Part shown: positions 5,636 to 53,234 of the stretch, piece after piece
How the letters are laid out: the number at the start of each line of letters is the position of its first letter
Numbering within the stretch: position 1 is the first letter of the stretch
Source of the DNA: Firmicutes bacterium HGW-Firmicutes-2
Lineage (GTDB): Bacteria > Bacillota > Clostridia > Lachnospirales > Vallitaleaceae
Length of the DNA: 64,000 nucleotides
Assembly (NCBI GenBank): GCA_002841495.1
Contig: PGZV01000016.1
Location: 1-64,000, forward strand
Reading direction: 5' to 3'
Made by a program: the position numbers and the translations under genes
The notes under the pieces: generated by a model
The model's database searches: none
What the model was told of the DNA's origin: nothing
What the model saw: only the letters and a program-made list of their open reading frames with translations

Positions 5636-5950
5636 ATGAATTTTTTAAAGAAAAGTTATCAGAATATTTCATCAGACGAAGTTAACAAGATTATGAAGGA
5701 CAAGGATGTTCAGATTATTGATGTGAGAGAACAATACGAGTTTGCTGCAGGACATATTGAAACAGCCAAACTCATCCCTTTGTCAACGATACCAAGCCGC
5801 ATCAATGAGATTGATAAAAATAAGAAAATCATTGTTGTCTGTGCCAGTGGTGGAAGAAGTACCAGTGCTTCTAAGTTCCTAGGTAAAGAAGGTTATGATA
5901 CGTATAACATGGTTGGTGGTATGATGGGATGGCGTTATAAAACAAAATAG
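5636..5950 (+). CDS. Single-domain rhodanese-like sulfurtransferase
   Basis: One rhodanese domain of 104 aa: the DVREQYEFAAGHI motif near the start and the active-site loop CASGGRS around residues 74-80, with the catalytic cysteine present. Likely moves sulfane sulfur to thiols; the physiological acceptor cannot be told. There is no signal peptide. It is monocistronic, with its own promoter and a terminator-like hairpin. Confidence 0.88.
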   Translation: MNFLKKSYQNISSDEVNKIMKDKDVQIIDVREQYEFAAGHIETAKLIPLSTIPSRINEIDKNKKIIVVCASGGRSTSASKFLGKEGYDTYNMVGGMMGWRYKTK

Positions 5951-5958
5951 TATTGGAA

Positions 5959-5994
5959 AAGCTGTCTCAGAATGTTGAGTCAGCTTTAATTTTG
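5959..5994 (+). terminator. Terminator-like hairpin after the rhodanese gene
   Basis: AAGCTGTCTCA (5959-5969, approximate) pairs with TGAGTCAGCTT with one mismatch around a 6-nt loop, followed by TAATTTTG. The T-tract is weak. Confidence 0.6.
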
Positions 5995-6041
5995 TGTTGA
6001 TATGTTGTTTAAGCGCATAAGAATAATTTTTGGTAATAATC

Positions 6042-6239
6042 GTAGATATGATACACACTTTTTCCTTGCCTTACACTTCGTACGGTCATCGGAAAAACTG
6101 TGTATCACATCTACTCGGTAATAGATCGTCATTTCGTCAAGAATAAGCACTACTCAATCATCCTTCTTTTTTACATCCATGTAAAAAGGAAGGACGTTCT
6201 ACATCCATGTAGAACTGTGATTGATCCGTGCTTATTCTT
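6042..6239. repeat. Structured palindromic element A with two CATCCATG hairpins
   Basis: Non-coding. First stem: 24-nt arms at 6042-6065 and 6091-6114 with two mismatches. Second module: outer arms AAGAATAAGCAC (6139-6150) and GTGCTTATTCTT (6228-6239), inner TCAATCA (6154-6160) with TGATTGA (6218-6224), enclosing two hairpins at 6162-6193 (15-bp stem, one mismatch) and 6196-6215 (9-bp stem). Both hairpins are capped by ACATCCATGT. The plan matches elements B and C, although stem sequences differ. No ORF in the 5951-6680 interval could be supported; apart from elements A and B and the flanking terminators it is AT-rich filler. Confidence 0.75.
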
Positions 6240-6392
6240 TCCTTATTCGGTTCCGCAAAAGTTTAATTTCAAGACTTAAATTTAAATATCCCACATAATG
6301 CACTTTGTTCTGCGTAAGATGGTACTTTTTATGCTTATATGATTCTTTTAAACTAAATTATTATATACAGATATACTAAAAACCATTTTTTC

Positions 6393-6542
6393 TTTAGCCA
6401 ACTCCGACCATGAAGTTCCTGGAAGCAGTGTGTGTGATGGAGTCAGTCAGCATGGATGCTGACCGTCGACTTTTGGTGCATGGATGCACCAATTGGAGAC
6501 CGTAATCATACATACTGTGGAAGGGTTTTCATGGGACCCACC
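6393..6542 (-). repeat. Structured repeat element B (inverted copy of element C)
   Basis: Read on the minus strand, this 150-bp stretch aligns nearly end to end with 53086-53234. It contains CCATGAA/TTCATGG outer arms, a 13-bp stem, and two hairpins capped by GCATCCATGC on the minus strand (GCATGGATGC at about 6450-6459 and 6478-6487 on the plus strand). The middle stem is 3-4 bp longer than in C on both arms, so pairing is kept. Non-coding. Confidence 0.85.
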
Positions 6543-6595
6543 TTAAAATCACACTCAAAGAACCCACAGTTTTATATGGGGATTAAAGAGAATCA

Positions 6596-6630
6596 TAAAA
6601 AAAGTCTCTAAGCTTTACCACCTAGAGACC
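6596..6630 (-). terminator. Rho-independent terminator of the rubredoxin-like gene
   Basis: On the minus strand, GTCTCTA pairs with TAGAGAC and is followed by a run of T (plus strand 6597-6603). It lies about 50 bp after the gene's stop codon. The hairpin resembles the terminator before element C. Confidence 0.85.
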
Positions 6631-6680
6631 TCGCTGATTCTTATTTTTGTTAACAAAGAGCTTTAATTCATAGAGAAAGA

Positions 6681-7013
6681 CTACCATTTACCTTTGTTCA
6701 TGTGGATGCCAAGTTCTGCTTTTGCAAGATTCTTGATTTCCCATGCCATTTTGATGGTTTTCTCAAATACATCAATACAACCTGGATCTAGGCCGATTTC
6801 GATACCGGCTTCGCTTAAGTCAATCATTGTAGCAGCAAGATTTACCAATTCCATATGAAGATCATTGGATTCATCAGAAGCATAAATCTTGTTCGCGTCT
6901 TCCTCAGATAAAACAACGTGTTTTTCTTTAGGTGCACCACATTTTGGGCAAAAATCCAAAGCTTCATCTGCCTCATATACGTAGCCACATCCTGTACATT
7001 TAAATAGATTCAT
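6681..7013 (-). CDS. Rubredoxin-like metal-binding protein with helical tail
   Basis: 110 aa. The N-terminus has a rubredoxin/zinc-ribbon knuckle pair, CTGCGYVYE at residues 6-14 and CPKCGAPKE at 22-30. A predicted all-helical acidic region follows (LHMELVNLAATMIDLSEAGI and onwards). Such proteins occur in anaerobic Clostridia and are sometimes grouped with rubrerythrins, but I see no diiron E-x-x-H motifs, so peroxidase activity is not supported. A strong AAGGAGGT precedes ATG. Probably an electron-transfer or redox-sensing role (inference). Confidence 0.7.
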   Translation of the reverse strand: MNLFKCTGCGYVYEADEALDFCPKCGAPKEKHVVLSEEDANKIYASDESNDLHMELVNLAATMIDLSEAGIEIGLDPGCIDVFEKTIKMAWEIKNLAKAELGIHMNKGKW

Positions 7014-53041: not shown

Positions 53042-53077
53042 GTCTCTAAGGGTAAAAGCTTAGGGGCTTTTTTTTTG
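53042..53077 (+). terminator. Terminator after cshA
   Basis: GTCTCTAAG pairs with CTTAGGGGC (two G-T pairs), followed by nine T. The sequence is similar to the terminator at 6596-6630. Confidence 0.85.
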
Positions 53078-53085
53078 CTATGATA

Positions 53086-53234
53086 GTGGGTCCCATGAAA
53101 ACCCTTCCACCAACTGTATGATTACGGTCTCTAGTTGGTGCATCCATGCACCAAAAGTCGACAGTCAGCATCCATGCTGACGAACTCCATCATACAGTCT
53201 GCCTCCAGGAACTTCATGGTCGGTGTTGGCTAAA
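53086..53234 (+). repeat. Structured repeat element C with two CATCCATG hairpins
   Basis: Outer arms CCATGAA and TTCATGG, then ACTGTATGAT with ATCATACAGT (perfect), enclosing the hairpins TTGGTGCATCCATGCACCAA and GTCAGCATCCATGCTGAC. Aligns with 6393-6542 in inverted orientation. The rest of the 511-bp gap (53235-53537) holds AT-rich sequence, a tandem repeat and the his promoter, with no ORF. Confidence 0.85.

Follow-up and report, generated by a model that had tools for sequence, protein, structure and literature searches.

The window, by which we mean the whole 64,000-nt stretch of DNA that was analysed, carries a minus-strand rubredoxin-like gene near its start, and directly downstream of this gene lies a structured element spanning positions 6040-6538. 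It is made of two halves, A and B, and B occurs a second time, on its own, near the other end of the window (element C). We write A' for the reverse complement of A, which is the minus strand of the window. The features are as follows.

6601-6632, minus strand: intrinsic terminator of the upstream rubredoxin-like gene (minus strand, 6681-7013), with the element directly downstream
6406-6538, minus strand: module B, one half of the composite, with an outer stem, a conserved internal loop and two hairpins; covariance-model score 159 bits; its loops read UCC on the minus strand and GGA on the plus strand
6480-6485, plus strand: B hexaloop AUGGAU, as read on the plus strand
6452-6457, plus strand: the other B hexaloop AUGGAU, as read on the plus strand
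6252-6405, minus strand: spacer between B and A' (LK); a transposase remnant is present here in several other copies and undetected in this one
6115-6251, minus strand: module A1 (A' strand), a multibranched stem with two adjacent hairpins whose tips are ACAUGGAUGU on the minus strand, then a U-rich stretch
6203-6208, minus strand: hexaloop AUGGAU of hairpin a (ANGGAX, CsrA-type)
6175-6180, minus strand: hexaloop AUGGAU of hairpin b (ANGGAX, CsrA-type), 28 nt from hairpin a
6042-6114, minus strand: module A2, the long 3' hairpin of the composite (the separate 24-nt stem of the earlier note), kept in composites and G-U-rich on the minus strand
53089-53221, plus strand: solo module B (element C), past the terminator of a DEAD-box helicase gene and upstream of a histidyl-tRNA synthetase gene

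Folding of positions 6030-6260 gave -84.5 kcal/mol (z = -10.5), a value equalled by none of 200 shuffles. The fold reproduced the one proposed in the earlier note, with a 12-bp outer stem and an inner stem enclosing two adjacent CATCCATG-capped hairpins (6174-6181 and 6202-6209) and a separate long stem beside them (6042-6114). B (minus strand, 6451 and 6479) and C (53141 and 53169) had been described as following the same plan, and indeed both carry a cap identical to that of A and share its 28-nt spacing. Chance was controlled for by shuffling the 64-kb window and by searching the genome with the reversed pattern. A genome-wide count of the paired cap motif gave 26 occurrences, of which 25 lie inside these repeats, and the reversed pattern gave none. 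Within the window, seven hairpins combine an ANGGAX hexaloop with a stem of at least 6 bp, six of which are those of A, B and C; 100 shuffles yielded a mean of 1.4 and a maximum of 6.

Together, A and B make up a single dispersed composite repeat, each forming one half, in the order B, spacer, A'. The window's own Petrocella genome holds about 15 copies of A (BLAST) and 43 of B (covariance model), and many copies of the repeat are partial. At most A loci, B lies upstream and is inverted relative to A as originally read. Module order is fixed across about 75 loci in four genomes (B5, B core, an optional insert, B3, the LK spacer, A1 and A2), which rules out A as an independent repeat, and the order and orientation of the composite were seen at about 30 loci of the four genomes. 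The earlier note had called A an unrelated sequence with the plan of B and C; this proved wrong, the two being parts of one ISL3-linked composite (6040-6538), and the limits given for A (6042-6239) were too short, since the A half covers 6040-6251 and the composite continues into B. Nor is the cap constant in all hairpins: B shows the variants GTCCT, TCCT, TTCCT and GTCCCT, and A shows CATCCCTG and CATCCTG. Finally, the tips of A and B had been taken as alike; they carry CATCCATG on opposite strands and are therefore complementary, not identical, within one transcript.

The B model matches all four Petrocella genomes and has no match in 143 other genomes of the order; named records with repeat matches are Petrocella sp. 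FN5 and the MAG HGW-Firmicutes-3. No match was found in the viral contigs and the plasmid and phage collections searched, and an Rfam search returned nothing above the gathering score, only sub-threshold chance matches. For want of an Rfam match, group I and group II introns, OLE, GOLLD and ROOL were rejected as identities of the repeat. Terminator-like ('TERM') and ISL3-left-end-like sequences were also considered as parts of the composite and were rejected or left as uncertain, both being present at a site free of the element.

Several further repeats are interleaved with these modules. An optional 80-nt hairpin insert occurs in B, AAATTTCATAAGAAAGT...ACTTTCTTATGAGCCT (L002, L012, L019, L021, L085). 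The first ~40 bp of B are often duplicated as a direct repeat 15-40 bp past B (L079, L082, L157, L030, L088), and a few loci have a second copy of them, inverted, after A2. A third repeat family, D (~120 bp), is inserted at few, recurring positions in A1 or A2 (L239:835-945; L044, L147, L148, L207); it is also found upstream of fliW, and a D-like piece lies within the flagellin leader of the G003 genome (L243).

The repeat is a conserved structure, because its paired bases covary. In 56 distinct copies of B, aligned by fitting to the covariance model, 95.9% of the predicted-pair cells are paired and 20 pairs have changed on both sides, compared with 8.9 in shuffles (0 of 500); slid controls collapse, and a smaller MAFFT alignment agrees. 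The strand that acts as RNA can be read from the wobble pairs. Across 22 distinct copies, the A' strand has 110 G-U cells against 2 A-C cells; since G-U so far exceeds A-C, this shows, at the level of sequence, that A' (the minus strand of the window) is the RNA strand. For B the picture is ambiguous: its UCC strand has 41 G-U and 66 A-C cells, which come mostly from one stem and represent few independent positions, and the GGA strand is not clearly favoured.

Read from the complementary strand, the caps become ANGGAX hexaloops, and their stems are closed by C-G. The high-affinity site of CsrA/RsmE is an ANGGAX hexaloop on a stem, and omission of the N lowers affinity (PMC4005645); SELEX for CsrA gave the consensus RUACARGGAUGU with six-nt loops, and a CsrA dimer bridges sites 10-63 nt apart (PMC7652899). 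Ten loop types occur on the GGA strand (AUGGAU, AGGAC, AGGGAC, AAGGAC, AGGAA, AGGA, AGGGAU, ACGGAU, AUGGAA and AGGAU), and about 212 of 217 loops, about 98%, fit A(N)GGA(X), although copies share ancestry and the counts are not independent. By hairpin, with opposite-strand readings of the same hairpins excluded, the fit is 73/75 and 66/68 for hairpins 1 and 2, and 39/40 and 34/34 for hairpins a and b. Loop changes are almost confined to the two positions that CsrA tolerates, the 28 nt between paired A(N)GGA(X) hairpins falls within the bridgeable distance, and copies with hairpin b UACAGGAUGUA come near the SELEX sequence. GGA density in B is 6.2 per 133 nt on the GGA strand versus 1.3 on the opposite strand. 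The stems of the repeat measure 7-8 bp, more than in most SELEX hairpins, and high stability of a stem may be a drawback.

All four Petrocella genomes encode csrA, which adjoins fliW and a flagellin gene; the gene order is flgL-like, fliW, csrA, flagellin. In three of these genomes, including the window's own, the flagellin leader contains the hairpin GCCAGC-AUGGAA-GCUGGC (a one-base stem variant occurs), close to the GUCAGC-AUGGAU-GCUGAC of B.

The position of the repeats relative to genes is strongly biased. Among 60 B copies with an upstream ORF of at least 90 codons, a set that includes the ISL3 copies and related loci in sister species, 58 lie behind a gene of the same sense, 1-374 nt past its stop, and none lies between divergent genes; the sequences directly before B are stop codons or intrinsic terminators. 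Module A1 is present in 17 of 30 convergent and 3 of 23 tandem gene contexts (Fisher 0.0015). Between tandem genes, 20 of 23 copies have B and lack A', so that the sense transcript there bears UCC and not GGA loops. A promoter scan of the element gave no more matches than chance.

Comparison of sites between genomes shows presence and absence. Two sister species, G002 and G003, lack element C, which in G000 and G001 stands right after the T-run of the terminator. At the A/B site, G001 has no element, and G002 carries the composite in the orientation opposite to that in G000 and G003 (L216, G002:C158:5870-6790, set against window 5930-6720), through either inversion or independent insertion past the terminator of the other gene. 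We also observed that terminators of unrelated genes share AAGTCTCTAAG...CTTAGRGACTTTTTT (window 6601-6632 and 53042-53074, and many loci), as if the terminator were itself a repeat; some of these are preceded by ISL3-left-end-like sequence.

A link to insertion sequences comes from G003, a sister-species genome in one closed contig. It contains four copies, at least 99.5% identical, of a 1.69-kb ISL3-family sequence bounded by 8-bp target duplications (TTTAATTC, AAAACTTA, TTTAATCA and AAAATAGA). The element encodes an ISL3 transposase (PF01610, 1.6e-73; NF033550, 4e-97), whose gene is separated from the left end by B. As a side observation, five ISL3 copies can be placed on G003 C1 (293373, 2103083, 2202561, 2728582 and 2763863), and the transposase frame is intact in two of the five and broken near codon 250 in three. 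Several composites have an LK spacer that matches the ISL3 transposase gene at its 3' end (best 84% identity over 68 nt), and for this reason the composites look like internal-deletion derivatives of an ISL3 element. By this account, the composite would descend from an ISL3-family insertion sequence, or be carried by one, and would have lost the transposase gene except for its 3' end. Examined as non-autonomous elements, the composites share B and the transposase remnant with the intact G003 copies and lack a pair of terminal inverted repeats. An ISL3-type left end is present in a few copies only, no right-hand ISL3 terminal repeat was found past A', and an intact element with B and A' together was not seen either. 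Comparison of composite and solo B sites with sister genomes revealed no recognisable target duplication, and the window's own genome contains no ISL3 transposase of the G003 type.

Taken together, we lean, by a modest measure, towards a repeat of ISL3 origin that brings double CsrA-type hairpins to the 3' ends of transcripts and most likely binds CsrA. Transcription of the repeats, their binding of CsrA and any regulatory effect are inferred from sequence; CsrA binding appears to be the best-supported reading for A' and is less certain for B. Because the repeats lie in sense at gene 3' ends, read-through would place them in the 3' ends of mRNAs. The A' RNA would then expose a pair of ANGGAX hexaloop hairpins at a 28-nt spacing, an arrangement that a CsrA dimer binds, and B would offer a matching pair on the opposite strand, available in transcripts that come from the convergent gene or from the transposase. 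Binding could titrate CsrA or alter decay of the host transcript, and the genome may thus hold scattered CsrA binding sites at the ends of dozens of genes. Of the suggestion that the conserved tip is recognised by a protein or an RNA, the idea itself stands, with CsrA as the candidate protein and loop-loop pairing of B with A' as another possibility; the part that took A for an unrelated sequence does not. A more far-reaching version, which we consider speculative and rather improbable, is a dispersed, transposon-spread CsrA sponge across the genus, with CsrA expected to be under FliW control and with B loops masking A' loops so that each copy is a switch. If the loops do bind CsrA, an insertion sequence family would be spreading sites of a global post-transcriptional regulator, whose regulon could be rewired or titrated by transposition, and the repeats would be an RNA counterpart to CsrB-like sponges in a FliW-encoding Firmicute. 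Among the titles listed for papers on CsrA with transposase mRNA or sponges, none mentions mobile CsrA sites.

Conservation of the caps could also arise from mutual pairing and not from reading by a protein: in one sense transcript, the B loops (AUCCAU) would pair with the A' loops (AUGGAU) in a double kissing complex closing the composite. The 6-bp complementarity is perfect in most composites, the strand of A' that acts as RNA is also the sense strand, and loops of unusual sequence tend to have a matching partner (one copy combines GUCCCU with AGGGAU, others combine UUCCU with AGGAU). More specifically, B loops containing CCU are accompanied by A' loops containing AGG in 7/15 versus 1/14 (Fisher 0.035; permutation p 0.019), values uncorrected for shared ancestry. 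We nonetheless think mutual pairing an unlikely cause, as solo B copies without A' retain the same loops, complementarity falls to 3-4 bp in several composites, and both loops independently fit the CsrA consensus. Such pairing could also mask CsrA sites and is in this respect compatible with CsrA binding.

Similarly doubtful is the possibility that the repeats are transposon debris, that is, MITE-like derivatives of ISL3 that insert at gene 3' ends, whose caps have no role and whose structure is retained as protection against read-through or for transposition. The ISL3 linkage, the transposase remnant, the many partial copies, the patchy presence between species and the lack of a G003-type transposase in the window's own genome all agree with it, as does the constant orientation of ISL3 copies relative to the upstream gene. 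It is at odds with base pairs that covary in dozens of copies and with loop changes restricted to CsrA-tolerated positions, and the excess of G-U over A-C in A' implies selection on RNA. Least probable of all is that the repeats are mobile terminators or insulators in which the long stem and U-rich run of A1 stop transcription between convergent genes and the double hairpins are just part of the fold: the enrichment of A1 in convergent contexts speaks for it, and a similar action has been suggested for the BOX and SPRITE repeats of pneumococci (PMC3049150), but an intrinsic terminator already precedes many copies, a scan found no standard terminator from the A1 outer stem, B has no U-run, and the conserved loops are left unexplained.

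The reading we prefer, a transposon-linked repeat with CsrA-type hairpins, can be set beside several known systems. OLE, GOLLD and ROOL are, like the repeat, large multi-domain structured RNAs of bacteria; the repeat differs in having no Rfam match, in its many copies per genome and in its absence from the viral and phage collections searched. Among ISL3 sequences and MITEs, there is an intact relative with B between the left end and the transposase gene and with 8-bp duplications, and the composite spacer is a transposase-gene remnant in several copies; unlike these elements, the composites have no recognisable terminal repeat pair and consist of large conserved structured modules. BOX elements of Streptococcus pneumoniae (PMC3049150) resemble the repeat in being modular, with a predicted RNA fold, many copies, variable modules and a link to insertion sequences, and both are restricted to one genus or a few species. 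There is no known sequence relation between the two, and the repeat stands apart in its nearly strict sense orientation at gene 3' ends, in caps that fit a known protein site and in its ISL3 link. The CsrA/RsmE-binding RNAs (CsrB/CsrC, RsmX/Y/Z and flagellin leaders) likewise have paired A(N)GGA(X) hairpins at a spacing that a CsrA dimer can bridge and a high GGA density on that strand; compared with these RNAs, the repeat is dispersed, transposon-linked and placed at gene 3' ends in a FliW-encoding genome.
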